64,000 bases of DNA from an uncultured Selenomonadaceae bacterium (lineage in GTDB: Bacteria; Bacillota; Negativicutes; Selenomonadales; Selenomonadaceae), in assembly GCA_905233135.1 (NCBI GenBank), contig CAJOCQ010000003.1:62001-126000 (forward strand), written 5' to 3'. Each line of letters begins with the position of its first letter. Position 1 is the first letter of the stretch. Below, one piece after another: positions 14,892-62,228 of the stretch. The translations under genes and the position numbers were made by a program. A model generated the notes under the pieces. That model was not told the origin of the DNA, did no database searches, and saw nothing but the letters and a program-made list of their open reading frames with translations.

Positions 14892-17800
14892 TTATTTTTC
14901 TTTGGCAAAAGTTAAAATGTTTTCGTCCTGCGCGAAAGTATCTGCATTATTATCTTGAATATCAGTAACAGTAAATTTCGCTTCGGTAATTGAATCCAAG
15001 TTTGTATCGTCAGTCATAAAATTATTATCTTCAAACAAATCTAAAGTGCGTGCGTTGGCATTTGAATAAAGTTGCGTGGTAGTTTTGCCGCTTGAATTTA
15101 TAATAGAAATCTTTTTGCCGTTGCCGTCCTTGACAGTCAAAGTATCGCCGTCAATCGTGAAAATAACGTCGTCGCCGTCATAGGTTGTATTTGTAATTTC
15201 GGCAGAAAGTTTAATTTTATCTTTGCTTGCGGTGTAATCTGTAATAACGTCATTGCCGCCTTCAAAAACAAAAATATCGTTGCCGTTGCCGCCCGTCAAA
15301 GTGTCGTTGCCGTCGCCGCCGTTCAAGGTATCGTTGCCGTCGCCGCCCAAAATTATATCCGCGCCTGCTTCGCCAAAAAGTTTATCATTGCCTGCGCCGC
15401 CGTCAATATAATCTGCGTCCGCGCCGCCGTACATTGAATCGTTGCCCGCGTCGCCGTAAAGGCTGTCAGCACCTGCGCCGCCTTCGATATAATCTGTACC
15501 TGCGCCGCCCAAAATTATATCTGCGCCGTCTTCGCCGTAAAGTCTGTCATTGCCTGCGCCGCCGTTGATATAATCTGCGTCTGCGCCGCCGTAAATTGAA
15601 TCGTTTCCCGCGTCGCCGTAAAGACTGTCAGCACCTGCGCCGCCTTCAATATAATCATTGCCGCTTGCGCCCAAAATTGAATCCGCGCCGTCTTCGCCGT
15701 AAAGTTTGTCATTGCCCGCGCCGCCGTTAATATAATCGTCATCTGCGCCGCCGTAAATTGAATCGTTGCCCGCGTCGCCGTAAAGTTTATCTGCGCCGTC
15801 ATTTCCAATGATTGAATCATTGCCGCTGCCGCCGTAAATTGTATCAACGCCGCTGCCGCCAAGAATCGTATTTGCTTTACTGTTGCCTGTAATTTTTAAA
15901 TCTTCGGTTCTGCTTGAGGCGTCAATGAGCAATGCATTTGCATCGACTTTGACAGAAGATTTATCGGCGTCAGTTATCGTTACTTCGGTATAAACGCCGC
16001 TTATAATTGTACTGAAAGAATTTCCGTCCGCGTCGATAAGGTGGATAGTTTTATTTTTCGCGCTCTTAATGGTAATGTTATCTTCGCCGACAGTGAAAAT
16101 AACGTTGGAGCCGCTAACAGTATCTTTTGTAATTTCGCCGCTTGCAATTTGAATTGTATCTGTAGTTTTGTAAGCAGAAATATAATCGTTGCCGCCCGCG
16201 TACACGAATAAATTATTTCCGCCGCCGCCAATAATTGAATCGTCGCCTTCGCCCGCGTAGATTGTATTATTTTTCGCCGCGCTTGAAAGTGAAATTTTAT
16301 CGTCGCCTGCAACCGCTTCAATAGTAACATTTTTGGCGGAGCTTTTAATTGTATCGTTGTAGATTGTGCCGCGAATTAATTTTTCGGCGGTAGAATTTTT
16401 AATTGACGCGCCAATTTCTTCATTTGCAACGCCAATAAGCGTAGCAGCTTTTGCCAAATAGGAAAGCGGGTCTTTAGTAATGGATTTAGCGTGCCCTGCG
16501 CCTTCGACTGTCCAAAGTTCTTTGATAGTTGCGCCGCTTGCGTCATAAAGTGTTTGAGCGTCTTCAACAGGAACCAAAGTATCTGCCGTGCCGTGAATGA
16601 ACATTGAAGGAACAGTAACTTCTGAAATACTGTCAAGCGGTACGGCGTCTGCGACATTGTAGCCTGTTAAAGTTTCTGTAGCGTCTGCAACTTTATCAAA
16701 TAATTCTTCAGTAGTACCTGTCCAACCGAACGATTCTGCAAAGTAAGGGGCGAGGTTTTCAAAAATTGAATAAATATTTGCGTAGCCGCAATCTTCAACC
16801 AATGAAGTAACATTTGTAGTTTTAGAAAGTGCCGCCGCCATCATAACAGTAGCCGCGCCCATTGAAATTCCGTAAAGTGTAATTTGCGCGTTAGAATTTG
16901 TTTCTGCAATTTTTTGAGTCCATAAAGCCACGTCAACACATTCTGCAACGCCCATTGTCAACCAATCGCCTTCAGAATTTCCGCTTGAACGCGGTTCAAC
17001 AACCAAAACATCATAATCCATTGCAAGAAGTACAGCTGCAGGAAGATTCATTGTCGCGCCAACTTGCCCGTAACCTGTAACAAGTACAACCCATTGCCCT
17101 TTCGGATTTTTGGGACCGTAATGAACGCCGCAGAGTTTGAGATTGTCCGCAGATTCGATTGTCCAATTTTCCGTCAAATAGGCGTCAGGAGCTGCAGAGC
17201 CGACTGTATCAGGTTCAAACAGCCCTGTTTCGCACAATGCAGGATAACCTTTTTCTGTTCTCTTCAACATAAATTCTGCAAATGCTGCGCCGATTGTTTC
17301 GTTGTCGGCAGAAATGACACTTTCTACGCCGTTAATATTCAAAGTTTCGCCCGCGCCGTCAAGAATCGTTAAAGTGCCGTTTGAGCTTGTCAAAATGACA
17401 TTATCGCCGCTTACGCTTGAACTTGTGAAAGTGCCCTGCAAAGTAACAACGCTGCTGTAATTTTTAATAGTATCATTTCCCGCGCTTACTTCGATAACTT
17501 GTCCTTCATAATCGCCCGTATCTTCTCTAAGATTATTTGTAAATTCAATATAATCATTGCCTGCGCCGCCGTTAATGGTGGTATTTTCGCCGTTGTTAAT
17601 GATAGTATCGTTGCCTGCGCCGCCGAAAATTGAAGAATTGCCGCTGTAATGCAGAGAAATATAATCATTGCCTGCGCCTGCGTCAATAGTAGCATAGCTG
17701 CCAAAAGCCCAATTATCAAAATCATCTGTTTGAATTGTTGCCAAGTGCCCAATGATAGAATCGTTGCCTGCGCCGCTGTAAACGCCCAAAGAGCCGCCGC

Positions 17801-20309: not shown

Positions 20310-23300
20310 TTATTTATCTTCGCCGTAAGTTAAAATGGTGGAATCCTGCGCGAGTTTTTCAACTTTATTATCTTGAATATCAGTAACAGAATATTTAGCT
20401 TCTGTAATATCGTCCAATGCCGTGTCATCTGTCATAAAGTTGTTATCGTACAGCAAATCTAAAGTGCGTGAACCCCAATGGATTTGATCTGAATAAGTTT
20501 CAGTAGTTTCATTGCCGCTTGAATCAATAATTGTAATATCTTTGCCGTTGCCGTTTTGTACAGTCAAAGAGCCTGTGCCAATCTTGAAAATAACGTCGTC
20601 GCCGTCGTAACTTGTATCAGAAATTTTGCCTTTGGAAATTTGAATTTTATCTGCGCCCGCCGTGTAATCGGTGATAACATCTTTACCCGCGCTGTAAACA
20701 AATAAATCGTGACCTGCGCCGCCCGTCAAAGTATCAGCCGCCGCGCCGCCGTCCAAAGTATCATTGCCCGCGCCGCCTTCGAGGTAATCTTTGCCGCTGT
20801 TGCCTTCAAGATAATCTGCGCCTGCGCCGCCGTACATTGAATCATTGCCTGCGCCGCCTGAAATTTTATCTGCGCCGTCATTACCCAAAATTGAATCAGA
20901 GCCTGCGCCGCCGTCAATCGTATCATTGCCGCTGCCGCCATAAATTGTATTTGCCTTGCTGTTGCCTGTAATTTGCAAATCTTCTGTCCTGTCTGAAGCG
21001 TCAATAACCAAAGCGTTTCTGTCTGCTTTAATAATCGATTGGTCAGAATCAGTTATTGTTGCTTCTGTAGAAGTGCCGCCGATTAACGTACTGAAAGAAT
21101 TTCCGTCCGCGTCGATAAGGTTAATAGTTCTATTCTTCGCGCCTTTGAGGGTAATGTTGTTTTCGCCGACAGTGAAAATGACGTTGGAGCCGCTCAAAGT
21201 AGCATTGGAAATTTCGCCGCTTTCAATTTGAATTGTATCAGTAGTTTTGTAGGCAGAAATATAATCGTTGCCGCCTTCATACACGAACAAATTATTTCCG
21301 CCGCTGCCAATAATTGAATCGTCGCCTTCGCCCGCGTAGATTGTATTATTTTTCGCCGCGCTTGAAAGTGAAATTTTATCGTTGCCTTCGTCGCCGTAAA
21401 TTAAAGCATTTGCGCCGCTGTTTTTGATAGAATCGTTGCCGCTGTATCCTTGAATTGTAACATTTGCGCCGCTGTTTTTAACAGTATCATCCAAACTACT
21501 GCCGCTGATTAAAGTATTTGCGGTATGGTTAATGATATTTTGCGCGGCAATTTTTTCACCGACGACACTTTCTACGCCGTTAAGGTTAAGAGTTTCGCCT
21601 GCGCCGTCAAGAATTGTCAAAGTGCCATGCGAAGTTTTCAAAACAACGTCATTGCCGCTGACGCTTGAATTTTTGAAAGTACCCTGCAAAGTAACAACGC
21701 TGCTGTAATTTTTAATTGTATCGTGGCCGAGACTTGTAACAAAAATTGCACTTTCATAATCGCCCGTGTCTTCTTTGAGCTTGTTGGTAAATTCGATATA
21801 ATCGTTGCCTGCGCCGCCGTTAATCGTGGTATTTTTTCCGTTGTGAATGATAGTATCATTGCCCGCGCCGCCGTAAATCGAAGAGTTATCGCTGTACCAC
21901 GTGTCGATATAATCATTGCCTTTGCCCGCGTCAACTGTATTATAGCCGCCAAAAGTCCAATCGCTGGTTTCAACGTTCGCCAAAGTTCCTTGAATTGTAT
22001 CGTTGCCTGCGCCCGTTGAAAGGCTTAATTTATGTCCTCTGCCGACAATAACCGAATCATCGCCCGCGCCTGTTGTAACTGTATTTTCGTAGCTGTGATA
22101 AAGTCCAATAACATTATCGCCTTCGCCCGCGTCAACTGAACTTTGGTACATTCCCTCGTTGGCAATGGTATCGTTGCCTGCGCCCGTGATAATTGTTGAG
22201 GCTGTATCTGAATCGTAATTTACGTAAGCTTGTTTTTCTTCGTCATATTTAACATAAGTATTATAAATGTAGTTATCGCCGTCGCCCGTTGTAATGTTAA
22301 TTTGTTTTGATTCAACGCCGTAAACAGTATTGTTGCCGTCGCCTGTATTGATTGAAACATTATCGGCAATAACAGAAATTGAATCATTGCCCGAGCCGCT
22401 GTCAATCGTTACATTATCGCCCGTGTTAGAAATTGTATCGTTTAATTCTGTACCTTCAATCAAAGTATTTGCAACGCTATTGTTAATGTTAAGGGCAGTC
22501 ATATTTTCGTCAATGGTAGTTTCTGCGCCGTTAATGTAGAAAGTTTCGCCCTTGCCGTCAATAATTGTTAAAGTACCTTCCGCGCTTGTCAAAATGACGT
22601 TATCGCCGTCAACGCTGGAATTTGTGAAAGTGCCGACAATGGAAGTATTTTCGTTGACGCCCAAAAGTGTATCATTTCCCGCGCTTACTTCGATAACTTG
22701 TCCTTCATAATCGCCCGTGTTTGCTCTTAAATTATTTGTAAGTTCAATATAATCGTTGCCCGCGCCGCCGTTAATGGTTGTATTTTCGCCGTTGTTAATG
22801 ATAGTGTCATTGCCTGCGCCGCCGTAAATTGAAGAATTGTCGCTGTAATGCGGCGAAATATAATCGTTGCCTGCGCCGCCGTCGATAATTGCGTTACTGC
22901 CGAAAGTCCAATTATCTTCGCCTGCCGCAGGTGACAAAACGCCCAAAATTGTATCGTTGCCTGCGCCCGTTGAAATATTCATATTTGAACCGCGCGTAAC
23001 TTCAACAAGATCATTACCGTTGCCGCTTGTAATTGTATTTTTGTAGCCAAAGTCAAGTTTAATATAATTATCGCCTTCGCCCGCGTCAACTGAAACTTTT
23101 GATTCATTTGAAGATATTGAATCAGAAACTGCATTGATATAAATTGAATCATTGCCCGCGCCGAGACTTATTGAAACACTTCCAAGCTCTACAAAACCTA
23201 TTGAAACTTTGTCGGCGTCTTCGCCGCCCGTAATTTCAACGTTGGAACCTGCTTTAACAGTTGAAATTGTTAAATCTATTGCATTTGTTTCAGCGGTACT

Positions 23301-26300
23301 TTCAATACTTTCTGCGGTAATTCCGGGATTGCGCAAAGTATCGACGCGATTTATATGTTTAGGTTCGCCTGAAGTTACAGTTACATTTCCATAAATATCA
23401 TTAAATTCAAAAGTATCTGCGCCGCCGCCGCCGTCAACAGTAACGTTGCTTTTCTTGCCGACATCTCCAATTTTTACATTGTCGTTGCCGTCTTGCAATT
23501 CTGCGTAGAAAGAAACGGACGCGCCCAAATTTCCTGTTGTAATATTATTTTCTGCGTTGCCGCCAAGAAAAGTAATATGCCCGCCGTTAGAAATATCTCC
23601 AACTTCGGCAGTAAGAGAATTAATTGCAACTGCGCCTATATTTACTTTTTTGCCGACTTCGCCAATAGTAACATTATCGTTGCCGCCGTCAAGCCACATA
23701 TGAAATCCATTTGACGCGGCAATATCGCCAATAGTTATAGAATCATTGTTTGAACCGAAATTTGCATTGCCGGGACCAAACTCAATCGCAACGAAATTAT
23801 TTTTGCCGTTAATATCGCCCAAAACAACATTGTTTGCAACTGCGCCCGAAACACTTTCAAAGAAAATATTTTTGTTGCCTTCAAAACTTCCGACAGAAAC
23901 ATTATTGCTGCCTTCGCCGCTTGTGTTGTTTAAATAAAGCATTAAGCCCGCGCCGTGCATTTTGTCGATAGAAATATTTGCGGCGTCTTCGTTGGTAAGA
24001 TTGATAGTGTTAAAAGTACGCGAAGAATTTTTAATAGGACTTCTAAGCGTGCCAATATTAATATCGTTGGTAGCACCCGCGCCCGTGATTGTAACTTGAT
24101 TTAAAATGCCTGCGAAATCAACAACATCTTCGCCTTCTCCGAGATTTATCGTAGAATTTGAAATGCTGACAGAGGAATTTGCTGCAACAAGAGAATCGTT
24201 GCCTTCCCCCGCGTCAATACTCAAATTTCTGCCCGAAGCGGTAATTAAATCATTGCCCGCGTTGCCGTAAATCGTTACGTTATGCCCCGTGCTTGTAATT
24301 GTATCGTCTTCATCTGTACCGATAATTTGAACAGCTTTTGCAGAATTTATAACAACGCCACTGCTCAAAATGCTGTCGCCAATTTGAATATTGCCTTCAT
24401 CAGACAAATCTCCAATCGCACCTAAAAAAGCCGTGCCGTCATTTGCAAAGAAAACTCTCAATCTAACGCTGTCATCGTCTGAAATGGTGTAAGTTTTATC
24501 GCCAAAAGTAAATTTGCCCGTAGAATCAGTTACAATGTCAAAATTTGTACCGTCTTCATAAGTTTCGCCGTCCAATTCGGCACTTGCCGTAACAGTTACG
24601 CCTTTTGAAATATTCTGCAACTCTTTAACGCCAAAAGAAGTTAAAGTAACAGTATAATCTTTGTCGCCGCTTACAGAAACATTTTCTACAAAAGTTTTTC
24701 CAATTTCAGATTCATCAGTTTCATAATAAGCAACTTCTTCAGCAGTTACAACGTGCGAAACTTCAAAGCCGCTGTCAGTCAATGTAACAGTTACGCCACT
24801 TTCAACGTCTTCAGTAAGTTCAAAAGTTTTATCGCCGTAAGAAATTTCCCCTGCTTCAGTCATAACAAAAGAAATTTCGCCGTTTGTAATTGAAACAGTG
24901 CCTTCGCCTGAAAATTCTTTGCCGTCGAAAGTTACGCCCGCGCCCGCGTCAAATGAAACTGTATCGCCGTTTGGAAGATAAACTTCAACGTTATCTGCAG
25001 TTGTAGTAATTTCATTGCCGTTCAAAGTGTAAGTGCCTGCAGTTTCCAAAATGTAAATTGGATCAAAGTCATTTGTTTTGAAAATAGAGCCTGCGGTAAT
25101 TGTAGCGGTATTGCCATAGTTATCAATAAATGTACCGTTTTGGAGTTCCAAAGTTTCGCCGTCTTGACAATCCAAAACAAACTGCGCGTTTTCGCTTGCA
25201 ATATAAGAAGTGCCGCCTGCGCCAAATTTAATGGAACTTTCGCCGCCGTTAGTGGACATAATCATTTCATTTTCATCGAAGAAATAATTTGTAAAGCGAA
25301 TTTCGGAGCCGTCAGAAGCCGTAACAGTGCCGCCTTGGTAAGAAATAGAACCTTTAATTGAAGTAATGTTGAAAATTTCAATTTCGCCGTCAGTCAAAAC
25401 AACGTTTAAAGCGTCCGAGCTTGAAGGCGTAATTGTTAAGCCGCCTTCAGGATTGAAAGTAATGGTGCCGCTTGCGTCAGTGTTGGCAGTAATTGTTAAT
25501 TCGTTGCCGTTTTCAAAAACATTTTTAACAACCGTACCTTCTGCAAGTTCAATATTGCCGTCGAATGTATAAGTAACGGTGCCTGTCATTTCCAAACTTG
25601 CAGTGCGCGTAGTATCGCCGTTGGTTACGGTTAATTCTAAATGTCCGTCTTCTTCGGCGGGCGTGAAAGTAATTCCGCCGTCAAGAAGTGCAAGAGTGCC
25701 GCCGGTGTCGTTGGTTGTTTTGAAAGAAATTGAATAAGTATCGCTGAATGTAAGTTTTAATTCAGTATCTTTTGCAATGGAAATGGTGCTGTCGGGATTC
25801 AAAGTGAAAGAGCCGCTTAAAGCCTCAAGAGCTACATTTTCAAATTGACTGTCGCCCGTGCCTTCAACAGTAATTGTTAAACCGCCGTCATCGCTATCGG
25901 GCGTGTAAGTAATTCCGCCTTCGTCAGTAAATGAAATTGTGCCGCCCGCGTTTTTACTGTTGGAAGTTGTAAAGACATAATCGCCCATTGTAAGTTTTGT
26001 TACAGTGCCTGCTGCAACGTCCAAATGGAAAGTTGAAAGATTGAAACTTATGGAGCCGCTTACAACTTCAATATCTGCGTCCAAAGTTGTTTCATAATCA
26101 GAATCATCAGAAGAGGCGGCTAACAATCTCTTGGATGAGGACTTAGATTTTAACAATTTAAAATTTAAAGTACCGTCGCCTTCATTAGGCGTAAGAGTAA
26201 TAGTGCCGTCGGAAGCAATTTCAAATTTTGAAGTTGCATCGTCATTTGCGGTAATTTGAGCAACCGTGCCGCTCGGCAATGTAACTTTTGCAACAGTATT

Positions 26301-27287
26301 TTTTGTAAAAGTAATTGCGTGGTTGGCAATGTCAATTTTGACTGTGCCTTTGATATTAATCGGAATTGCAGCTAAACTGCCAATAGAAACGTTTACGCCG
26401 TTATCATCGCTTGTTGTTAAAGAAACTACGTTGTTTGCCATAGAAATTGATGTGGTAGCATCATTAGTCGCGCTAATATTGACAGAAAGTCCTTGAATAG
26501 TTGTAGTAAGAGTTGTGCCTGCTGAAAGTGTAAATTCACTGATTTGCCCTGTAAGAAGATACAACAAGCCAAAAGATAAATCGCCGCCGCTTAATGTTAC
26601 GTCGCCTGAAAGTCCAAAAGTACTGCCGCTAATGTTGACTGACGCGCCGTCCTTAAATACAAAGTAAAGCCCGTCAATCGCCAAAGTAGAATCGGAATTC
26701 GCGGTAATTCCAAAATTCAGCGCAGTTGAATATTCAGTAAGTTTTAAGTTATTAACAGAAACTGCCGCGTCTTTCGCAAGTGTAATAGCTTTATTTTCTG
26801 CGTTATAAGTAATGCTGCCGCTAAGAGAAATTGAACCGCTTGCAGTACCGCCGCTTACAGTTGCAGTTAATGTATCAGTCAAATTAAATACAGTTGCGCC
26901 GCTTGAATTAAACGGTACATCCAAACCGCCTGAAGGAACTGTTACAGTTATTGTGCCCAAAATTGAGGAGAAAATTGCGTTGTTTAATTTTACGCCGACA
27001 TTGCCCGCAGGGAAATTAATTTTGTCTGCGCTGTAAGTTGCTTTACCTGAAACATAGTTAAAAGAATGGCTGTCTTTAACAATTCTCAAAGTGCCGTCAG
27101 TTGACTCCGCAGTGAAACTAAATGCAGTCGAGCCGTCCAAAGTAATTTTTGGGTCTGTAGAATTTTCAAGCGTAACTTCAACAGTGCCTTTTGAAATTCC
27201 CGTGACGTTGCCCGAAGAATCATAAGTTAAAGCCGCGTCATCGCTTGTTGGGGTATAAGTTACGCCGTTTTTAGTTACAGTTTCCAT
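20310..27287 (-). CDS. Giant repeat protein with beta-rich N-terminal repeats and RTX-like C-terminal half
   Basis: 2325 residues, among the longest genes expected in such a genome. About residues 1-980 are Ser/Thr/Gly-rich beta-type repeats with a recurring GxTxTPxxxDGxL motif (for example ITYTPDSDDGGL, ITFTPAEEDGHL). No lipobox, LPXTG or FDLQLF start is seen. From about 985 on, loose RTX-like units appear in modules of 200-260 residues that closely resemble modules of the neighbouring giant gene. Tight nonapeptides lie at about 2114-2210. The last hundred residues (FMTDDTALDDITEAKYSVTD region) match the tail of the neighbour, consistent with a shared C-terminal secretion signal. Start ATG has GGAGG ten bases upstream. 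Likely a secreted adhesin or surface-layer-type protein; function inferred only. Confidence 0.85.
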   Translation of the reverse strand: METVTKNGVTYTPTSDDAALTYDSSGNVTGISKGTVEVTLENSTDPKITLDGSTAFSFTAESTDGTLRIVKDSHSFNYVSGKATYSADKINFPAGNVGVKLNNAIFSSILGTITVTVPSGGLDVPFNSSGATVFNLTDTLTATVSGGTASGSISLSGSITYNAENKAITLAKDAAVSVNNLKLTEYSTALNFGITANSDSTLAIDGLYFVFKDGASVNISGSTFGLSGDVTLSGGDLSFGLLYLLTGQISEFTLSAGTTLTTTIQGLSVNISATNDATTSISMANNVVSLTTSDDNGVNVSIGSLAAIPINIKGTVKIDIANHAITFTKNTVAKVTLPSGTVAQITANDDATSKFEIASDGTITLTPNEGDGTLNFKLLKSKSSSKRLLAASSDDSDYETTLDADIEVVSGSISFNLSTFHLDVAAGTVTKLTMGDYVFTTSNSKNAGGTISFTDEGGITYTPDSDDGGLTITVEGTGDSQFENVALEALSGSFTLNPDSTISIAKDTELKLTFSDTYSISFKTTNDTGGTLALLDGGITFTPAEEDGHLELTVTNGDTTRTASLEMTGTVTYTFDGNIELAEGTVVKNVFENGNELTITANTDASGTITFNPEGGLTITPSSSDALNVVLTDGEIEIFNITSIKGSISYQGGTVTASDGSEIRFTNYFFDENEMIMSTNGGESSIKFGAGGTSYIASENAQFVLDCQDGETLELQNGTFIDNYGNTATITAGSIFKTNDFDPIYILETAGTYTLNGNEITTTADNVEVYLPNGDTVSFDAGAGVTFDGKEFSGEGTVSITNGEISFVMTEAGEISYGDKTFELTEDVESGVTVTLTDSGFEVSHVVTAEEVAYYETDESEIGKTFVENVSVSGDKDYTVTLTSFGVKELQNISKGVTVTASAELDGETYEDGTNFDIVTDSTGKFTFGDKTYTISDDDSVRLRVFFANDGTAFLGAIGDLSDEGNIQIGDSILSSGVVINSAKAVQIIGTDEDDTITSTGHNVTIYGNAGNDLITASGRNLSIDAGEGNDSLVAANSSVSISNSTINLGEGEDVVDFAGILNQVTITGAGATNDINIGTLRSPIKNSSRTFNTINLTNEDAANISIDKMHGAGLMLYLNNTSGEGSNNVSVGSFEGNKNIFFESVSGAVANNVVLGDINGKNNFVAIEFGPGNANFGSNNDSITIGDIAASNGFHMWLDGGNDNVTIGEVGKKVNIGAVAINSLTAEVGDISNGGHITFLGGNAENNITTGNLGASVSFYAELQDGNDNVKIGDVGKKSNVTVDGGGGADTFEFNDIYGNVTVTSGEPKHINRVDTLRNPGITAESIESTAETNAIDLTISTVKAGSNVEITGGEDADKVSIGFVELGSVSISLGAGNDSIYINAVSDSISSNESKVSVDAGEGDNYIKLDFGYKNTITSGNGNDLVEVTRGSNMNISTGAGNDTILGVLSPAAGEDNWTFGSNAIIDGGAGNDYISPHYSDNSSIYGGAGNDTIINNGENTTINGGAGNDYIELTNNLRANTGDYEGQVIEVSAGNDTLLGVNENTSIVGTFTNSSVDGDNVILTSAEGTLTIIDGKGETFYINGAETTIDENMTALNINNSVANTLIEGTELNDTISNTGDNVTIDSGSGNDSISVIADNVSINTGDGNNTVYGVESKQINITTGDGDNYIYNTYVKYDEEKQAYVNYDSDTASTIITGAGNDTIANEGMYQSSVDAGEGDNVIGLYHSYENTVTTGAGDDSVIVGRGHKLSLSTGAGNDTIQGTLANVETSDWTFGGYNTVDAGKGNDYIDTWYSDNSSIYGGAGNDTIIHNGKNTTINGGAGNDYIEFTNKLKEDTGDYESAIFVTSLGHDTIKNYSSVVTLQGTFKNSSVSGNDVVLKTSHGTLTILDGAGETLNLNGVESVVGEKIAAQNIINHTANTLISGSSLDDTVKNSGANVTIQGYSGNDSIKNSGANALIYGDEGNDKISLSSAAKNNTIYAGEGDDSIIGSGGNNLFVYEGGNDYISAYKTTDTIQIESGEISNATLSGSNVIFTVGENNITLKGAKNRTINLIDADGNSFSTLIGGTSTEATITDSDQSIIKADRNALVIDASDRTEDLQITGNSKANTIYGGSGNDTIDGGAGSDSILGNDGADKISGGAGNDSMYGGAGADYLEGNSGKDYLEGGAGNDTLDGGAAADTLTGGAGHDLFVYSAGKDVITDYTAGADKIQISKGKISDTSYDGDDVIFKIGTGSLTVQNGNGKDITIIDSSGNETTETYSDQIHWGSRTLDLLYDNNFMTDDTALDDITEAKYSVTDIQDNKVEKLAQDSTILTYGEDK

Positions 27288-28210: not shown

Positions 28211-28250
28211 ACTATAACACTATCACACTATTCAACTATCACACTACTCC
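28211..28250 (+). repeat. Period-8 mini-repeat between serA and comEA
   Basis: ACTATAAC, ACTATCAC, ACTATTCA, ACTATCAC and ACTACTCC follow in exact 8-base phase; the last overlaps the serA stop. The same unit occurs at 5041-5064. Confidence 0.85.
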
Positions 28251-29818
28251 GCGTCATCAAATGCAACCAGCGTAACGTCAAAAATTGCTTCCAAACTTTT
28301 AACTTTGTCAATGACAGCTTTTGAAATTGGATTATCGACAGTCAACACCATTAAATTTGTGCCGCCGATGTCAGTTTTGCCGACTTGCATACTTGAAATA
28401 TTTATGTCAAAGTCAGCCAAAATCGTTCCGACTGTACCGATAACGCCGGGCTTGTTTGTATGCGGGCAAATTAAAATTCTTGAATGCGGGTCAACGTCAA
28501 CGCGGAAATTATTTATTTCGACAATGCGCCCTTCGTTGCCGAAAAGTGCGCCCGTTACAGAATTTTTATTCGCCGTAACTGTAACGGTGTTTGCAAAATT
28601 ATCTGCAACGTTGGAAGTAATTTCAGAAAGTTTAATTCCCCTGTCCTGCGCGAGCAAATTTGCATTAACCAAATTAACGTGCTCCAACGCGCGGGACAAA
28701 ACGCCCTTCAATACGGCGGTTGAAATTAGGGAAGTATTGTCTTCAGCAATTTTGCCGTTAATTTTTACTTCAACATTTGAAATTGGTTCTTTGCTGAGCG
28801 CGGTAATTGTTCTGCCCAATCTTTCTGCAAGCGTAAGATAAGGCGCAAGTTTTTTAAGAATGTGCGCGGGAATGTGCGGCATATTAACGGCGGTTGCAAC
28901 AGGGCGATTATTCAGCGCGTCAACAATCCCGTTTGCAACATCCACTGAAACGCTTATTTGCGCCTCAATCGTGGACGCTCCCAAATGTGGCGTTAAAATT
29001 AAATTGTCAATTTCGCGCAACGGCGAATTTTCTGCCAGCGGTTCACTTGTGAAAACGTCAACAGCCGCGCCCGCAATAATTTTTTCTTTCAGTGCAACTG
29101 CCAAATCATTTTCGTTAATGATACCGCCGCGTGCGCAGTTTATAAGGCGCGTGGTAGGTTTCATCATTTTCATTTTCTCAAGCGTTATCATATTTTCGGT
29201 TTGTTTAGTAAGCGGCATATGCACTGTAATAAAATCAGCAGTTTTAAAAAGTTCGTCAAGTTCCATAAGTTTAACGCCCAAAGATTCTGCGCGCTCCGCA
29301 CTTACAAACGGGTCATAAGCAATAACATTCATTTCAAAAGCTTGAGCGCGTTTAGCAACGCCCGCACCTATTCTTCCCAAGCCGATAACCGCCAAAGTTT
29401 TATTGCGCAATTCCACGCCGACAAATTTTTTTCTGTCCCAACCGCCCGCGTGCATAGTTTTATTTGCTTGCGGAATATTTCTTGAAAGAGACGCCATCAT
29501 TGCGAAAGTATGTTCAGTTGCGGCGATAGTATTTCCGTCGGGCGAATTTATAACAATAATTCCGCGTTCGGTTGCGGCTTTAACGTCAATGTTATCAACG
29601 CCGACTCCTGCGCGCCCGATTATTTTTAAATTTTCGGCGCGGCTGATAACTTCAGCAGTAACTTTTGACGCGGAGCGAACTATAAGCGCGTCAAACTTCG
29701 GAATAATTTCCAAAAGTTCGTCCGCAGAAATTTTATCGTGAACTTCGACGCTAAAATTTTTTTTAAGAATTTCGATACCTTCGGCAGCTATGCCGTCAAC
29801 GGCTAAAATATTGTACAA
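28244..29818 (-). CDS. serA: D-3-phosphoglycerate dehydrogenase
   Basis: First enzyme of serine synthesis, oxidising 3-phosphoglycerate with NAD. The start is the TTG at 29816-29818, with AAAGGAAG upstream; it gives 525 residues, the normal long-form length. The longest frame runs 29 codons further into the upstream gene. Visible are VIGLGRIGAGVAKRA (NAD loop), NCARGGIINE (catalytic Arg region), a Glu in DVFTSEP and HLGAST (His). An ASB domain (about 320-440) and a C-terminal ACT domain (ILICPHTNKPGVIGTVGTIL) follow. Probably co-transcribed with the GT9 gene 19 bases upstream. Confidence 0.96.
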   Translation of the reverse strand: MYNILAVDGIAAEGIEILKKNFSVEVHDKISADELLEIIPKFDALIVRSASKVTAEVISRAENLKIIGRAGVGVDNIDVKAATERGIIVINSPDGNTIAATEHTFAMMASLSRNIPQANKTMHAGGWDRKKFVGVELRNKTLAVIGLGRIGAGVAKRAQAFEMNVIAYDPFVSAERAESLGVKLMELDELFKTADFITVHMPLTKQTENMITLEKMKMMKPTTRLINCARGGIINENDLAVALKEKIIAGAAVDVFTSEPLAENSPLREIDNLILTPHLGASTIEAQISVSVDVANGIVDALNNRPVATAVNMPHIPAHILKKLAPYLTLAERLGRTITALSKEPISNVEVKINGKIAEDNTSLISTAVLKGVLSRALEHVNLVNANLLAQDRGIKLSEITSNVADNFANTVTVTANKNSVTGALFGNEGRIVEINNFRVDVDPHSRILICPHTNKPGVIGTVGTILADFDINISSMQVGKTDIGGTNLMVLTVDNPISKAVIDKVKSLEAIFDVTLVAFDDAE

Positions 29819-29837
29819 GGTAAAACTTCCTTTCAAT

Positions 29838-31034
29838 TTAATTAAAGTCAAGTTTAAAAAATAATTCTTCAACAGATTTATCGTCTGTAAGAACAGGCGG
29901 CGCACCCGTTTTTCTGATTTTTGAAAACTTCATAAAGTACGCCATTTCTTCAAAGGCTTTGACAATTTCAGCGGGATTTATTTGAGTGATACAATGCGGC
30001 TTGTATTCTGCGCAACCCGAATAAATCAAAGCTTCTTTGCACTTGTCAAGGGGATGTTCGGGGCGCAAAACTATTGCAAGATTTTGCCAAGGATGATATT
30101 GGGCAAATTGGCTTAAACCTCTTTCAAAAAATAATTCCCTGTCTTTAGCTTCGGGGCTTAAAGTTATGGTAGGAATTTTCGCCGCCGCCGCGCAATGCGC
30201 AGTTCCCGTATCGTTGCCGATATATAATTCTGTCAGCGAAATTAACGCCGCTGTTTCGCGCCAATTTAATTTCAGCGTTGTAATATTTTTTACAAATTCA
30301 GCGGGCAAATTATCCTGTAAAAATTTTGCGTCTTCAGCTTCGGCAGATCCGCCGAAAATTATTAAAGCGGCTCCCTTTGCAATTATTTTTTGATATGCCT
30401 CAAGATATTTTTCAACGGGATAATGTCGCGCAGGATGACCGCCGCCCAATCCTACCGTAATTTTCATTCTGCCGGGCGCAAAATCTTTTAAAAAATTTTC
30501 AGCTTTGTATAAATCTTCCGCGCCGTACCACAATTCGCAATTAGTGCGTTGAATTTTCAAGCCGTAAGAGTGCAGAACAAATAAACTTCTTGCAACGTCA
30601 TTTATAATTTTTTTCGGCTGAATAACTTGATGCGTCAATAAAAAATATCCTATGTCCTTTTGGGCGTCTTCGGGCGAAATATTTCGGTAATATGTCCCGT
30701 TTGCTCCGCGAAAGTAGCCGATTCTTTCTTTTGCGCCGCTCAAATAAAGCAACGTCATTTCTTTAATATCTGTCCAATATCTGAAACTGAATGCAATATT
30801 ATAACGTTTCTTCCAAAGATTTTTCCGCGCAAAATCTACGCTTCTTTCAAAATTTTCAAGTATATCTTCAGAAAAATTAAAAGTTAAAATTTCGTTGACA
30901 TAGTGGCAAAATTCCGCCAAAGGGTAAATTATTTTCCGTACAACCAAAGTAATATGAGCCGCAGGATAATTCGCCCTAAGTTCACGAATTGCCGCGCTTG
31001 TCAAAACAAAATCTCCAACTGCGTCAAGGCGCAA
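29838..31034 (-). CDS. GT9 family glycosyltransferase (heptosyltransferase-like), main frame of a frame-interrupted gene
   Basis: ADP-heptose:LPS heptosyltransferase-like proteins transfer sugars to lipopolysaccharide or similar acceptors. Motifs are LRLDAVGDFVLTSAAIREL at the N-terminal nucleotide-sugar fold and YIGNDTGTAHCAAA in the C-terminal fold. This frame is open only from a TTG at 31034. Its true beginning (TTG 31219, AAGGGGGTGA upstream) lies in another frame, and the two join at a run of seven G (31053-31059). Adding one G would give a continuous protein of about 460 residues aligned with the next gene. The current state is therefore off, or yields an N-terminally truncated protein. 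A fixed frameshift is the simpler alternative. Confidence 0.8.
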   Translation of the reverse strand: MRLDAVGDFVLTSAAIRELRANYPAAHITLVVRKIIYPLAEFCHYVNEILTFNFSEDILENFERSVDFARKNLWKKRYNIAFSFRYWTDIKEMTLLYLSGAKERIGYFRGANGTYYRNISPEDAQKDIGYFLLTHQVIQPKKIINDVARSLFVLHSYGLKIQRTNCELWYGAEDLYKAENFLKDFAPGRMKITVGLGGGHPARHYPVEKYLEAYQKIIAKGAALIIFGGSAEAEDAKFLQDNLPAEFVKNITTLKLNWRETAALISLTELYIGNDTGTAHCAAAAKIPTITLSPEAKDRELFFERGLSQFAQYHPWQNLAIVLRPEHPLDKCKEALIYSGCAEYKPHCITQINPAEIVKAFEEMAYFMKFSKIRKTGAPPVLTDDKSVEELFFKLDFN

Positions 31035-31048
31035 AATTAATATATTGA

Positions 31049-31219
31049 CTAACCCCCCCTGTGGATAGGGGCGCGGAAATTTTCTGCCGCAAAAGCGGGC
31101 TCCATTTTTTTATACAATTCATAGTAATTAAATTTGCTTGTTTGAATGACGCCCGCTTTAAATTCTTCAACGGCTTTGTTCAAATTAGAAAATCTGTCTT
31201 CGGAAAAATTTTCTTCCAA
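31049..31219 (-). pseudogene. Out-of-frame 5' part of the GT9 gene
   Basis: TTG start with AAGGGGGTGA ahead, 56 codons, stop directly after the seven-G tract. The peptide (start EENFSEDRFSNLNKAVEEF, end NFRAPIHRGG) aligns with the first 55 residues of the intact GT9 paralogue (RTPRRGG at the same spot), showing that it is the displaced N-terminus of the gene at 29838-31034. Confidence 0.85.
31053..31059 (-). repeat. Poly-G tract (7), out-of-frame GT9 gene
   Basis: Seven G on the coding strand at the junction of the N-terminal segment and the GT9 domain. Eight would restore the frame. On the plus strand the C run is followed eight bases later by GGGG (31068-31071), forming a small hairpin. 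Confidence 0.9.
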
Positions 31220-31251
31220 TTCGTCACCCCCTTAAAAAAATTTAATTGACG

Positions 31252-32508
31252 TTAAGAGATTTTCTTGATTCTTGAAAACATTTTGAAGTAAATCATTTCG
31301 TCAAACGCTTTAACAATTTCAGCGGGATTTATTTGAGTGATACAATGCGGCTTGCCCGCATAGCAATTACCAAATTTTTCGCAACCTTCCAGCGGGCGTT
31401 CGCAAAGAAGAACTATAGCTTCAGTTTGATACGGGAAAAAATTGTAGTACTCGCCTTTTTTTAGTATTTCTACCATTTCTTTTGAATTACGGTTTACAAC
31501 AATGACGGGAATTTTTAATGCCGCTGCGCAATGTGCAGTTCCTGTATCGTTGCCGATATATAAATTTGTTTGAGCGATAACCGCCGCAGTTACGCGCCAA
31601 TTTAATTTCAATTCTGCAATATTTTTTACAGAATCAGCGGGCAAATTTTCCTGTAAAAATTTTGCGTCTTTGACTTCGGCAGGTCCGCCGAGAATAACCA
31701 AACTTGCGCCCTTGTCAATAATTTTTTTGAAAGCCTCAAGATACTTTTCAACGGGATATTTTCGCTCGGGAAAATTTGCGCCAATTCCTACTGCAACTTT
31801 TATTTTGCCGGGCGCAAAATCTTTCAACAAATTTTCGGCAGTATAAAAATCTTCATTGCCGAACCAAATTTCTACATCCTTGCGATTTACTTTCAGCCCG
31901 CTTGCTTCCAAAAGATGTAAATCTATCAAGCATGAATGCAAAATATTTTTATCACCTGAAACAGGGTGATTCAAAAAAATACCGCTCCAATCATTTTTTT
32001 CTGCGCTATGACCTATACGTTCACGTGCACCGCTTATGTACGACATAAAAATATGCGTAGCATCAGCAGGAGATGTAAAGCTTAAATCATAACGTTTGCT
32101 CCAAAAATTTTCCCGCGCAAATTCAAAAGAATTTTTTATTATATCCAATAAATTCCTGTTATATATTGGACTTACAAAAGGCGTATCAAAGGGAATTACT
32201 TCATTGACATACGGGCAAAATTCCGCCAAAGGATAAACGCGACGATTGACAACCAAAGTAATAAAAGCTGAAGGATAATTCGCCCTAAGTTCACGAATTG
32301 CCGCGCTTGTCAAAATAAAATCCCCAACTGCGTCAAGGCGCAAAATGAGAATCCTTTCTACCCCCCCCCTTCGGGGTGTACGGAAACCGAGCCTTGCAAA
32401 TTCCTGTTCCATTTCTTGCAGAAATAAACCGAAATTAATTTGAGAAGTTTTTAAAGCTTGTTCAACGGTTTCTTCGCCGATTTTATAAAGTGATTCAAAA
32501 TTTTCCAT
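31252..32508 (-). CDS. GT9 family glycosyltransferase (heptosyltransferase-like), in-frame paralogue
   Basis: The intact tandem paralogue of the preceding entry, 418 residues. A short helical N-terminal segment (about 1-50) precedes a poly-G-encoded Gly-Gly, then the GT9 domain: ILILRLDAVGDFILTSAAI, GIGANFPERKYPVEKYLEAF and YIGNDTGTAHCAAALKIPVI. The C-terminal GKPHCITQINPAEIVKAF is nearly identical in the two copies. Start ATG 32506-32508 has AGGTG six bases upstream; a GTG nine bases earlier is possible. It follows lysS closely and is probably on the greA-lysS transcript. Because its G run is nine long and in frame, the protein is predicted to be made in this sequenced state. Confidence 0.9.
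   Translation of the reverse strand: MENFESLYKIGEETVEQALKTSQINFGLFLQEMEQEFARLGFRTPRRGGVERILILRLDAVGDFILTSAAIRELRANYPSAFITLVVNRRVYPLAEFCPYVNEVIPFDTPFVSPIYNRNLLDIIKNSFEFARENFWSKRYDLSFTSPADATHIFMSYISGARERIGHSAEKNDWSGIFLNHPVSGDKNILHSCLIDLHLLEASGLKVNRKDVEIWFGNEDFYTAENLLKDFAPGKIKVAVGIGANFPERKYPVEKYLEAFKKIIDKGASLVILGGPAEVKDAKFLQENLPADSVKNIAELKLNWRVTAAVIAQTNLYIGNDTGTAHCAAALKIPVIVVNRNSKEMVEILKKGEYYNFFPYQTEAIVLLCERPLEGCEKFGNCYAGKPHCITQINPAEIVKAFDEMIYFKMFSRIKKIS
32361..32369 (-). repeat. Poly-G tract (9), in-frame GT9 gene
   Basis: Nine G on the coding strand, at the same position relative to the GT9 domain as the seven-G tract of the paralogue. The plus-strand C run is followed after TTC by GGGG (32373-32376), so a tight hairpin is possible. 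Confidence 0.92.
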
Positions 32509-32517
32509 AGCGTACAC

Positions 32518-34017
32518 CTATTCGATAACTTTCATTGTCGGGAAAAGTAAAACGTCACGGATTGACGGCGAATCCGTCAGCAACATTACTAAACGGTCAA
32601 CGCCGATACCGAGCCCTCCCGTCGGCGGCAAGCCGTATTCAAGCGCACAAATAAAATCAGTGTCCATAACGTGCGCTTCAGCGTCGCCGGCTTCACGCGC
32701 CTTTAATTGTTCCTCAAAGCGTGCCTTTTGGTCAATAGGGTCATTCAATTCTGTAAAGCCGTTGGCAAGTTCGCGCCCGTAAACATAAAATTCAAATCTG
32801 TCAGTAATGCGCGGGTCATTGGGATTTTTTTTGGCAAGCGGCGAAATTTCTGTTGGATGCCCTGTAATAAAAATTGGTTGAATTAAATCTTCTTCGACTT
32901 TCGCTTCAAACGCCGCGTTCAAAATTCCGCCAATTCCAAAACGCTGTTCATAGGCAACGCCAATTTCATCAGCCATAGCGCGCGCCTCTTCAACAGTTTT
33001 GCAGGAAAGAAAATCTTTGCCCGTTTTATTTTTTACGGCGTCATTCATAGAAATTCTCGGCGGGTTCTTTAAATCAAGTTCCACGCCCTGATAAGTAATT
33101 TTTGTCGTACCCAAAACTTTTTCGGCGGCAAGGCAACAAATACCCTCCGTCACGTCAATTAAATCATTGTAATCGCCGTACGCTTGATAAATTTCAACGC
33201 TTGTAAATTCGGGGTTATGGCGGTTATCCATACCTTCATTTCTGAAAATCCTGCCAATTTCGTAAACGCGCTCAAAGCCGCCGACAATCAAACGTTTCAA
33301 ATTTAATTCGGTTGCAATTCTCAAATATAAATCAATGTCCAAAGTGTTATGGTGCGTAATGAAAGGACGAGCCGCCGCGCCGCCCGCAATCGTTGAAAGA
33401 ATCGGCGTTTCAACTTCAATAAAATTTCTTTCGTCCAAATATTGGCGAATAGCTTGAATAATTTTTGTACGCTTTAAAAAAGTTTCGCGCACTTCGGGAT
33501 TAACAATCAAATCTAAATAGCGTTGACGGTAACGAATTTCAACATCTTTCAAGCCGTGAAATTTTTCAGGCAACGGGCGAAGAGACTTCGCCAATAAATC
33601 AAAATCTTCAACGCGGACGGTTAATTCACCGCGCTTGGTTTTGAAAACTTGCCCGCGCAGTCCTATAATATCGCCAATATCCAAAAGTTTAAACTGCGAA
33701 TATTTTTCTTCGCCCAAAATGTCAAGCTTGAAATAAATTTGAATGTTGCCTGTTCTGTCCGCCAAAGTGCCGAAACTTGCTTTACCGTGCCCGCGAATTG
33801 CCATTAAACGCCCCGCAATTTGAACTTCGCCCGCGTCTTCTTCGTTTTCAATTTCTCCGAACTCTGTGCGAATATCTGCGGCGTGGTGCGTGACTTCGTA
33901 ACGGTGCCCGAAGGGTGCAACGCCTTTTTCAATGAAGGCGTTTAATTTATCGTGGCGCGCCTGTATCAAAATATTTTCGTCAACAGGCGGTGTTTGTTCC
34001 TGTACATTTTTAGCCAT
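32518..34017 (-). CDS. lysS: Lysyl-tRNA synthetase, class II
   Basis: Charges tRNA-Lys. 499 residues with an N-terminal OB-fold anticodon domain ([21 protein letters not shown]) and the class II catalytic core: motif 2 [18 protein letters not shown] and motif 3 [15 protein letters not shown]. Length is normal. GAGGAG precedes the ATG. It lies 15 bases downstream of greA, a pairing common in Firmicutes. Confidence 0.98.
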
Positions 34018-42069: not shown

Positions 42070-42094
42070 CCTAACACCTAACACCTAACACCTA
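42070..42094 (-). repeat. Exact heptamer array starting in a stop codon
   Basis: CCTAACA occurs three times in a row (plus strand 42070-42090) followed by CCTA. On the coding strand the TAG stop of the restriction-modification gene is itself the first TAG of TAGGTGT repeats. Confidence 0.9.
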
Positions 42095-45000
42095 TTCCAT
42101 TGCCCGCACTTTTGTTTCGATAAAATCAATTTCTTCCTGCGACAAATTATATTTCTGATAGAGTTGCAAGTCAATTTCTGCAACGCTGCGCGACCAATCT
42201 ATATCTGAATCGTTGGTAAAATCTTGCAGCGGAACATATTTCCAAGTTGCGGGCGGATTATCTTGCGTAATTTTCAAAATGCCCAATAAAACCCTTGCAA
42301 ATTTAGTTTTGATATATTTTAAGCAATGATCAGTTTCCGCCGCGCTATCGAACGCTCCAACGCTTATATAAGTCTGTGTGCAGCCGACAAGCGGCAAGCC
42401 GACAAGCGGAGTTACCAATGTTTCACCCAAATTTCCGACGTTATTAGACTTTGCAATAAAAACTTTGTACTTATGCAAAATAAATATATCAATAATATAA
42501 TCACGGCGAACAAATCTTTTAACTCTTCGATTATCAAAACGCCCTTCAAATATAACATATTCGTTGCCGTCATTCGGTTTTTCTGTTAAAAAAATATCAG
42601 GCATAACTTCAAAGGCATTTGTTCTCAAAGCTGTATCAGTTCTTCTTGGCAAACGTTCAGGCAAATCAGGGAAATCTTCATAAGCTTTTTCAGAAAGTTG
42701 ATATGACATTTGACCATACATAATTTCGCTAAAAGATTTAAAATCTTTTCTATGAAAAACTTTTTGCCAAATAGATTTCAATTCGGGGAAGGGTATAAAA
42801 ACTTCAATCTTGCCGAAAATTTTATTTTGGTCGCGGTAGGTAACGGCAACGCCGCCTTTAATATCGGCGTCGGGAAAAATATTTTTGCAGTTGGGTTCGT
42901 AGAGAATAACTTTAATATGTTCGTCATTGAGCAACTTTTTATTAAAAGCGTTGGGAGTTGCGCCGGCGTTGAAGAGGCAACGGGCGGGGTGAATCATCAT
43001 AACGCGGTTGCAAGCTTGCCAAAAACTTTCAAGGAACAAATTATAAACGGGCTTTGCAAAAGTTTTATTATCGCCCGAAGTTTCGCCTTGATAGGGCGGA
43101 TTGCCAATGACAACGATATTTTTTAAGTCTTTGGCAATTTGAGAATCCAATTTTTCAAAGGGATTATCTTCAAAAAGCGGGCGGGTATTGTTGAAAAATT
43201 CGAGCGCGTCGCCTTGCACAATATTTTTAAAAAGAATTTGCCACATTAAATTTTTATCGAAGTCGCCAAAAATTTTTTCGTGGTACGCGGTAAAAGTATC
43301 TGCAACATTTTTTCGGGCGTAGGCTAAATTGTCGAATTGAATTTCAATGCCGTAAATCGAAGAAAGGGCGGTAAAGGCGTCCGCAGAATTTTTTGCAAGT
43401 TTCAATTTGCGTTGCAAAATTCCAACTAAAAAAGCTCCGTCGCCTGCGGTAGGTTCCAAAATTTTTGCGTCGAGCGTTTCAAAAACGTCAGCAATATTTT
43501 CATCGTCAAGCATTTTATTGACAATTTCGGGCGGCGTGAAAACTTCGCCGAATTTTTTAACGCGGTCTTTGTTCAAAATAATCACCTTAACCGAAAAAAT
43601 ATTTTTGAGTAAATCTGAAATGTTGCCTTCGCGCAGAGTTGCAAGAGTATCAATTTTATAAAAATTTTTTTGAGAAATATTTTGCGCGTTGCCGAAAATG
43701 TAGCGCGTAGCAATGCGGAAAATAATTTCATTGGGCGCGCAGCCGAAAACTTGATTTTCTAAAATGTGCTTGAGGCGTTTTTGGTTATCGGGGAAGGCGG
43801 CACAAATTTTATCATTTTTGTAAAGGCGTTTTACAATTTCGGCAATGTACAAGCCGCTTTTAATGTGCGGGTCAAAAAATATTTGCGCGGGGTTGTCGAA
43901 AATATTTGGGTTCTGAAATTGTAAAGCGTCAACCATTTTTTGAACGATAAAGCGCGGCGTAAAAACTTGGCTTGTCTTTTGCGGCGGTATGAAGTCGAAA
44001 ATATCTTTGTCCAAAGTTTCGTCGAAATAATCGGCGTATTTTTGCATACGCGCCAAAAATTCTGCAACGGCGGCGTTGAAAACATTTTCGCTAAAAATTT
44101 CTTCTTCGCGCAGGAGCCGAAATTCTTCCAAAGTAATTCCCGTAACCTGCAAAAAAGTTTCAGCGTCAATGTAAGAATCGAAATTCGCAAGTGTCAAAAG
44201 TTCGTCGCCGTAAGCCATAATAAAACTTGGAATTGTAGCGGCAAAAGTGCGCAGTTTGGCGCGGAAATCGTTTTCAGTTTGATTCTTGATAATTTCGTTG
44301 ATGACAGTTTCTTGAATAATTTCGGCGTCAACATTTTGTTTGACGAGCTCGGCAATTTTCTTTTTGAGCGCGGCAGAAACTTTGTAGCCGTTATCGGCAA
44401 GATTTTTAATAATTTCAGCAACAATTTCATTCGACGGCGTGTCAGGTTTAGGACGCGGCGGGCGCGTCGATTTTTTCGGCGGAGCTTCGCCGCCTGTTTT
44501 AATTTTATTATTGTCGCTGTCGCTGTTATCGCCGTGCATTTTGTTAATAATTTTTTTTACGGCGTCGCTGTTAAAAACGCGGTCAATATTGAAAAGCCCG
44601 TTGTACATAAAGCAACAATCAACCGCTTGTTTGGCGGCGATTTTTTGCGGCAGGGACATAATTTCTTTGGCGTCGAGTTCAACCATTCGCCCGTTGTCAT
44701 TTTCAGCGAAGACGGGGAAAATTTTCAGCAACTTTTTAAGAATATTTGTAGCGTTATAACTTTCGCCGCCGTTCAAACTTTGCGCAAATTCGTTATAAAT
44801 TTTGAGAGTGCGCACGGGCGAAAAGTCGAAAACGTAGCAATTAGTTTTGTGAAAAATTTCTTTGTCAGTTTCGTAACGGTGCGGATTTTGGCAACGAAAG
44901 GCAGTTTGAAAATAAAGCGCGGCACTTTTAAAATCGCTGAGCATTAAGACAGCAGACCATTCTTTGACGGTTACGCCGGTTGTAAGTTGCCCAACGCTCA

Positions 45001-61931: not shown

Positions 61932-62228
61932 TTAATTTTGAACGCGGGCGGGACGGTGTTTGGAGAAGCAATCACGGCAATAAACCGGACGCTCGTTTCT
62001 GGGTTCGAAAGGAACTTCAGTTTCTTTGCCGCAATCTGCACAAACGACAGTGAACATTTGACGGTGCTCGCTGCCGTCGCGGTTACGGCGGCGTTTGTCG
62101 CGGCAATCGCGGCAACGTGTAGGTTCGTTTTCAAAACCCTTTTCTGCGTAGAATTCTTGCTCGCCTGCGCTGAATACGAATTCTTTGCCGCAGTCCTTAC
62201 ATACGAGTGTTTTGTCTTCAAAAGCCAT
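61932..62228 (-). CDS. Small double zinc-ribbon protein
   Basis: 98 residues with four CxxC pairs: CKDC (about 10-13), CRDC (about 39-42), CADC and CRDC. Between the two ribbons lies a very basic stretch (DKRRRNRDG), and FSAGEQEFYAEKGF is typical of the zinc-ribbon family found beside cold-shock or primase-like proteins. Nucleic-acid binding is inferred from the basic patch. AAGGAG precedes the ATG. It is transcribed from 62291-62318 on the minus strand. Confidence 0.88.
   Translation of the reverse strand: MAFEDKTLVCKDCGKEFVFSAGEQEFYAEKGFENEPTRCRDCRDKRRRNRDGSEHRQMFTVVCADCGKETEVPFEPRNERPVYCRDCFSKHRPARVQN

Follow-up and report, generated by a model that had tools for sequence, protein, structure and literature searches.

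Two adjacent glycosyltransferase genes of an uncultured rumen Selenomonadaceae bacterium (assembly GCA_905233135.1) carry runs of nine and seven G at the same position of their coding sequence. Comparison of related genomes suggests that these tracts are very probably simple-sequence contingency loci, at which slipped-strand mispairing would cause phase variation of surface glycans, as part of a poly-G phasome resembling that of Campylobacter. The genes lie in a 64 kb window (the whole stretch of DNA analysed, positions 62001–126000 of contig 3) of a metagenome-assembled genome (MAG) of 2.45 Mb, consisting of 35 contigs and 86% complete. The best-known examples of glycan phase variation by homopolymer slippage come from pathogens. 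Slippage of this kind had been proposed from the letters of the window (the original prediction), and is well supported by comparative evidence, i.e., a genome-wide excess of nine-base runs, an enrichment of sugar-related genes among those carrying tracts, length differences between orthologous tracts, and the coding states found at the same position in homologues.

Tandem GT9 Genes with Tracts at the Same Position

Both genes (copies A and B, Table 1) exceed the cut-off of 22 for the GT9 heptosyltransferase family PF01075 and are members of that family. They share 56% identity across residues 47–419 of copy A. Each carries an N-terminal extension of about 50 residues that ends in the tract, and the place of the tract is identical in the two paralogues, immediately upstream of the sequence xxILILRLDAVGDF. 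Read on the minus strand, the 9-G gene (copy A) has an open frame throughout. In the 7-G gene (copy B), an N-terminal frame of 56 codons begins at a TTG (31219) and closes at a TAG (31051–31049) directly past the tract, and the GT9 core follows in another frame, which remains open upstream of its TTG (31034) as far as the tract. The arrangement is as originally predicted, including the paired runs, the intact frame of one gene and the interrupted frame of the other. The claim that no other G or C run of such length occurs in the window was also correct, as the 64 kb contain no further run of at least 6. Both lie inside frames and reach the length of at least 7 G or C, inside a frame or promoter, that was adopted from the available part of a Campylobacter study (PMC6321876) as the cut-off for phase-variable loci mediated by simple sequence repeats.

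Excess of Long G-Runs in the Genome

The string GGGGGGG gave 104 overlapping matches in the genome, representing 39 runs of at least 7: nine of length 7, two of 8, twenty-two of 9, five of 10 and one of 11. The 30 runs of at least 8 are therefore mainly (22) of exactly 9. Expected numbers were derived from a 400 kb sample, taken as stretches at round coordinates and containing no run of 7 or more, in which counts fell steeply with length (633 runs of 4, 76 of 5 and 6 of 6). Markov models of orders 2, 3 and 4 predict 1.09, 0.15 and 0.06 exact nine-runs genome-wide, compared to the 22 present (Poisson p = 2e-21 against 1.09 expected). The nine seven-runs are at the chance level as a class, with 31, 8.6 and 5.1 expected by the same models. 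Runs of at least 8 therefore form a separate population, and the seven-runs as a class do not. It follows that the 7-G tract of copy B is convincing only by its position, and a chance origin for it can be rejected on that ground but not by frequency.

The excess extends across the genus, which was represented by a set of 66 genomes (at least 66 species genomes). Exact nine-runs have a median of 6.5 per genome in this set, and of 1 in 53 other Negativicutes, six of which are genomes of the same family but of other genera (Mann-Whitney p = 2e-15; medians compared without regard to base composition). At least one nine-run was present in 65 of the 66 genus genomes, and the maximum was 25. An uncultured Selenomonas sp. 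(SRR8387716_bin.17; L194, G385) carries 42 runs of at least 8 G in 3.1 Mb, and poly-G tracts may be abundant in further Selenomonadaceae.

Counts of tract context in the host genome cover 29 of the 30 runs of at least 8 (all but one nine-run) and eight of the nine 7-G runs. The longer runs are followed by T in 18 cases and by C in 10, and the next two positions hold TA in 17 of the 29, a likeness to the start of a −10 box that is seen even in coding tracts.

Genes Carrying the Tracts

Eighteen of the 29 longer tracts fall within a gene recognised by Pfam (E of 0.01 or better) or at its end, four lie in promoters, and the remaining seven are intergenic or in open reading frames (ORFs) without a clear Pfam match. 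Sugar or polysaccharide families account for 13 of the 18 recognised genes: GT9, GT8, GT92, GT17, GT2 (twice), FkbM methyltransferase, NAD-dependent epimerase, polysaccharide pyruvyl transferase, WcbI, CDP-glycerol glycerophosphotransferase, hexapeptide transferase, and a DltD-like protein slightly below its cut-off. The other five are MaoC, SDR, KAS III, GNAT and citrate lyase ligase. The run is of C on the coding strand in three of the 18. Among 20 control ORFs from the 400 kb sample, scanned at a stricter threshold (E of 1e-5), there were no glycosyltransferases, one LpxD, one RTX protein and three without a match. Of the eight 7-G runs read, three fall in genes of glycan type, namely GT9 copy B, one FkbM gene and one GT92 gene.

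On contig 13 of the same genome (L078, 920–2904), an 11-G tract is found where a glycerophosphotransferase frame meets a capsular-synthesis gene in another frame, and whether the two products are made separately or as a fusion could depend on its length.

Length Variation between Related Genomes

Tract lengths were compared between sister species only, as matches over 800 bases at 100% identity to the loci under comparison belonged to the same assemblies as those loci. In one pair of sister species (G002 and G011; 93% identity in 10.8 kb of aligned loci), five orthologous tracts could be aligned through both flanks and had lengths of 9/8, 9/8, 7/9, 8/7 and 9/9, so that four of five differ. In a second pair (G017 and G035; 89% identity) there were 11 such tracts, of which six differ, four agree and one is ambiguous. 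Tract length thus varied in 10 of 16 orthologous pairs, and it did so beyond the variation of other sequence: differences consisting only of a gap were found in 6 of 17 G/C runs and 1 of 31 A/T runs (Fisher p = 0.005). Some of the rows are paralogous and the A/T runs (7–8) are shorter than the G/C runs, so this contrast is supportive and not decisive. Differences of two or more bases with clean flanks also occur, both between G017 and G035 (10/12 and 9/11) and among three tandem copies in G017, where near-identical flanks enclose tracts of 10, 8 and 13.

One of the 9/8 pairs of G002 and G011 (L283, 1500–1724, and L259) lies in the gene of an IspD-type cytidylyltransferase, as recognised by Pfam, and encodes its glycine-rich loop for nucleotide binding. 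The gene is open at nine and out of frame at eight, and would represent a switch built into an active-site motif.

The GT9 Hinge in Homologous Genes

If the place where the N-terminal extension meets the GT9 core is a switching point, then homologues might be found in both states. A subset of all homologue matches, 59 GT9 copies (58 from the same genus and one from another family), was examined at this hinge. Ten copies, in nine species, have a run of at least 7: G-runs of 9 and 7 (the window genes), 8, 9, 9, 7, 9 and 8, and C-runs, on the coding strand, of 9 and 10. Judged by the density of runs in the host genome, the chance of a run at the hinge is about 0.2% per copy. Five of the ten are in frame (four with 9 G and one with 9 C) and five are off (7, 8, 7 and 8 G, and the 10-C copy of G019, L063), so that both coding states are found at the same tract position. 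The poly-C tracts cannot derive from the poly-G tracts by slippage.

A tree built from the core sequences that follow the tract held 56 rows, nine of them with a tract; the copy from G023 and two others failed the filters. The presence of a tract requires eight changes on this tree, of which at least six are forced by well-supported branches, and hinge tracts were therefore gained or lost repeatedly. The number of changes was as low in 181 of 500 random shuffles of the tract label, which thus shows no more clustering than after shuffling. Copies A and B of the window are nearest to one another (support 88/60).

Tracts in Promoter Spacers

Four tracts of the host genome lie between −35 and −10 boxes, the layout of the porA promoter of Neisseria meningitidis. 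A pattern for such promoters (TTGACN, 6–14 bases, at least 7 G, 0–4 bases, TATNNT) gave 67 matches in 119 genomes, 65 of them from 35 genomes of the same genus, and the reversed control gave two. Despite the free positions in the pattern, the −35 box is TTGACA in 60 and the −10 box TATAAT in 38 of the 65 genus matches. Spacers range from 13 to 23, with a length of 19 in 29 of the 65, and the tract adjoins the −10 box in 46 of the 65. With TTGACA fixed, the pattern was found in 32 of 66 genus genomes versus 9 of 314 other Negativicutes (p = 3e-20; reversed control, 1). Four copies of one promoter, running from TTGACA to TATACT with 8, 9, 9 and 10 G, are present in a genome from another genus of the family (G236, L304–L307), and one of these precedes a large protein without a Pfam match.

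Downstream genes were followed for 48 distinct promoters, 31 of which have a downstream ORF by a set rule and 17 of which do not. Behind the 31 are an AAA ATPase in three species (the host genome included), a radical-SAM protein in two, and an OB-fold protein in two, where the tract has 9 G in one (L084) and 8 G in the other (L217). In eight genus genomes, 11 mutually similar RTX-repeat-like proteins are preceded by poly-G promoters. Pfam, applied to eight RTX-like and related proteins, recognised the RTX repeat in four (one below cut-off), and the rest are linked by BLAST only.

The window itself encodes two giant proteins with RTX calcium-binding repeats on the minus strand (14892–20108, 1738 aa, and 20310–27287, 2325 aa), the first of which also has an alpha/beta-hydrolase domain. 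No G-run lies near these two ORFs; the similar RTX-type proteins of other members of the genus are those found behind poly-G promoters.

Host

The named relatives of the GT9 genes are mostly MAGs of Selenomonadaceae or Selenomonadales, many of them labelled as from goat, sheep, deer, reindeer or buffalo stomach, in line with the initial guess of a Negativicute host. The host genus includes 'Quinella sp. 1Q7' (L147, G380), because the tracts of that genome coincide, by contig place, with all six listed tracts of a genome of the same genus (G067). According to the available part of the Quinella genome paper, three Quinella bins with less than 10% contamination are classified as Quinella in GTDB r207. 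Quinella is linked to low-methane sheep in the portion available of another report (PMC9585023).

Gene Neighbourhood and Local Structure

The genes around the GT9 pair (Table 1) are housekeeping genes, and none of them points to a substrate. A GreA-type gene precedes the aminoacyl-tRNA synthetase gene; the synthetase, the GT9 pair and the phosphoglycerate dehydrogenase are all encoded on one strand. Further along the window, a 1457 aa protein (42092–46465, minus strand) carries ResIII, Eco57I methylase and T5orf172 domains and has the look of a single-chain restriction-modification system.

Table 1. Coordinates of the GT9 genes, their tracts and adjacent features in the 64 kb window.
Feature	Coordinates	Strand	Basis or remark
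9-G tract, copy A, in frame	32361..32369	-	sequence read
7-G tract, copy B, out of frame	31053..31059	-	sequence read
GT9 copy A, complete frame from ATG 32508	31252..32508	-	PF01075, 51.7 bits
Copy B N-terminal frame, 56 codons, TTG start, TAG stop just after the tract	31049..31219	-	same state in other members of the genus
Copy B GT9 core, other frame, ORF from TTG 31034	29838..31034	-	PF01075, 48.6 bits
Possible hairpin of copy A, 9-G tract and the minus-strand CCCC four bases ahead of it	32361..32376	-	ordinary by shuffles
Possible hairpin of copy B, 7-G tract and the minus-strand CCCC ahead of it	31053..31071	-	ordinary by shuffles
Class II aminoacyl-tRNA synthetase (D/K/N type), directly upstream of copy A	32518..34017	-	neighbour check
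D-3-phosphoglycerate dehydrogenase, downstream	28244..29905	-	listed ORF; first codons overlap the end of the copy B ORF

The original prediction had noted GGGG after both tracts on the plus strand, which is present, and had placed the slippery runs in hairpins. The second part stands only in so far as the pairing exists on paper, since the candidate hairpins fold no better than shuffled sequences (z of −1.1 and −0.8). Among 116 tracts of the genus, CCC occurs within 12 nt upstream in 21, compared to 6 for the next 12 nt. A hairpin as the general driver was rejected, given that CCC is near only these 21 tracts and that the folding energies are ordinary.

Mechanism and Alternative Explanations

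In the proposed mechanism, slipped-strand mispairing at replication would lengthen or shorten the run of G. Since translation has to pass through the run to join the N-terminal extension to the GT9 core, a complete glycosyltransferase would be made only at some run lengths; in this assembly, copy A (9 G) would be on and copy B (7 G) off. Both tracts would be among some 30 poly-G switches spread over the genome. One class of these would act through the reading frame and would mainly affect genes for the synthesis or modification of glycans; the other would occupy −35/−10 spacers and is expected to determine promoter strength through spacer length. The effect of tract length on transcription, the identity of the glycan and its location at the surface are likewise predicted. 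The benefit would probably be escape from phages, grazing protists or host antibodies. Lipopolysaccharide, named as the target in the original prediction, is a guess from the family name, and capsule or another glycan is as likely. The two genes may act as an on/off pair, as was also proposed there.

Some features of copy B, i.e., its broken frame, a run length that occurs at chance frequency and a position in a variable linker, are what would be seen in a decaying pseudogene, in which case the G-run of copy A might be a tolerated Gly-Gly linker and no switching would occur. This is improbable, as each of the five off-frame copies, from five species, is interrupted at this one tract and otherwise has an alignable GT9 core, where ordinary decay would scatter the breaks. 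Tracts of both polarities occur at the hinge, and the genome-wide excess of nine-runs reaches promoters, where no linker is encoded. The runs might instead be sites of programmed transcriptional slippage or ribosomal frameshifting, giving a mixture of products from one DNA length. G-runs near a GC-rich stem could favour slippage, and the 56-codon frame of copy B runs straight into the tract, but the stems are no stronger than those of shuffled sequences, the run is missing from 49 of the 59 homologues and is poly-C in some, orthologous lengths differ, and tracts in promoter spacers would be left unexplained, making this explanation very unlikely. Less credible still is that errors of sequencing or assembly account for the odd tract lengths. 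Any of the compared genomes may carry homopolymer errors, but A/T runs of 7–8 in the same alignments rarely differ by gaps, several of the clean-flank differences are of two bases or more, and error cannot produce the excess of long runs, the classes of genes affected or the promoter boxes that surround some of the tracts.

Several observations weigh against phase variation by slippage as the explanation. The seven-runs are no more numerous than chance allows, so that the tract of copy B by itself proves little, and the 49 GT9 copies that lack a tract exist and perhaps work without one. Orthologous tracts were of equal length in 4 of 11 cases (G017/G035) and 1 of 5 (G002/G011), and under a loose criterion the G017/G035 comparison was non-discriminating, with 17 of 33 A/T runs differing and 5 of 11 G/C runs (one row doubled). 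Every sequence used comes from a MAG assembly or a genus genome, in which homopolymer errors can occur, and the comparison is across assemblies and not within a population, where we infer high-rate, reversible switching. The genome encodes MutS, the one component of mismatch repair that was checked, so a mutator state is not indicated and was rejected to that extent. Transfer of heptose to the lipid A-core by the GT9 enzymes is only a candidate function, and nothing in the data points to a substrate. With these points taken into account, slipped-strand phase variation is still the favoured explanation.

A broader proposal, to which we give roughly even chances, is that a poly-G phasome extends throughout an uncultured rumen genus that is not known to be pathogenic, joining frame switches of surface glycans with promoter-spacer switches that have RTX-repeat-like proteins among their targets. 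The GT9 hinge would be a hot spot for tracts of both polarities, and the driver would be predation by phages or protists and not disease.

Comparison with Known Systems

A search of titles and the starts of abstracts found no report of poly-G switching in Selenomonadaceae or Negativicutes; literature coverage was partial, and absence from print is unproven. The papers found on neighbouring subjects include a survey of gut invertons (PMC11892184) and one on Helicobacter canadensis. The terms phase variation, phase-variable, homopolymer and poly-G do not occur in the main text of the Quinella genome paper. The tracts apparently represent a known mechanism in a new host group, and the genus provides a counter-candidate from rumen metagenomes that can be tested with reads that probably already exist. 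The many gains and losses of tracts at the GT9 hinge offer a natural experiment on where homopolymer switches evolve, and Quinella populations are predicted to be mosaics of surface variants, with a bearing on phage or antibody targeting.

The closest likeness is to the Campylobacter phasome, which, in the part of the study available (PMC6321876), has tens of tracts per genome, mostly of G on the coding strand, in frames as well as intergenic. Its tract lengths peak at 9 (53%) and then at 10 (26%), as they do here (22 of 39 and 5 of 39). The present system differs in its host, a rumen Negativicute and not a member of the Campylobacterota, and in having a clear class of tracts boxed by TTGACA and TATAAT, and it is known from sequence alone. 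That class has its counterpart in the porA promoter of N. meningitidis, where a poly-G tract occupies the −35/−10 spacer and the gain or loss of one base changes transcription, according to the accessible text of PMC3899988. Unlike porA, the layout is shared by many promoters in many species, most commonly with a spacer of 19 and with the tract beside the −10 box, other genes are driven, and the effect on the promoter is a prediction. Within the GT9 family (PF01075), the window genes are set apart by the N-terminal extension that ends in the tract. Surface switching outside strict pathogens has precedents, as far as the available parts of the reports describe, in the slipped-strand variation of Bifidobacterium breve pili (PMC9187656) and in the phasomes of commensal Neisseria (PMC5953494). 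Both belong to other phyla; the former concerns pilus clusters, and the latter close relatives of pathogens.

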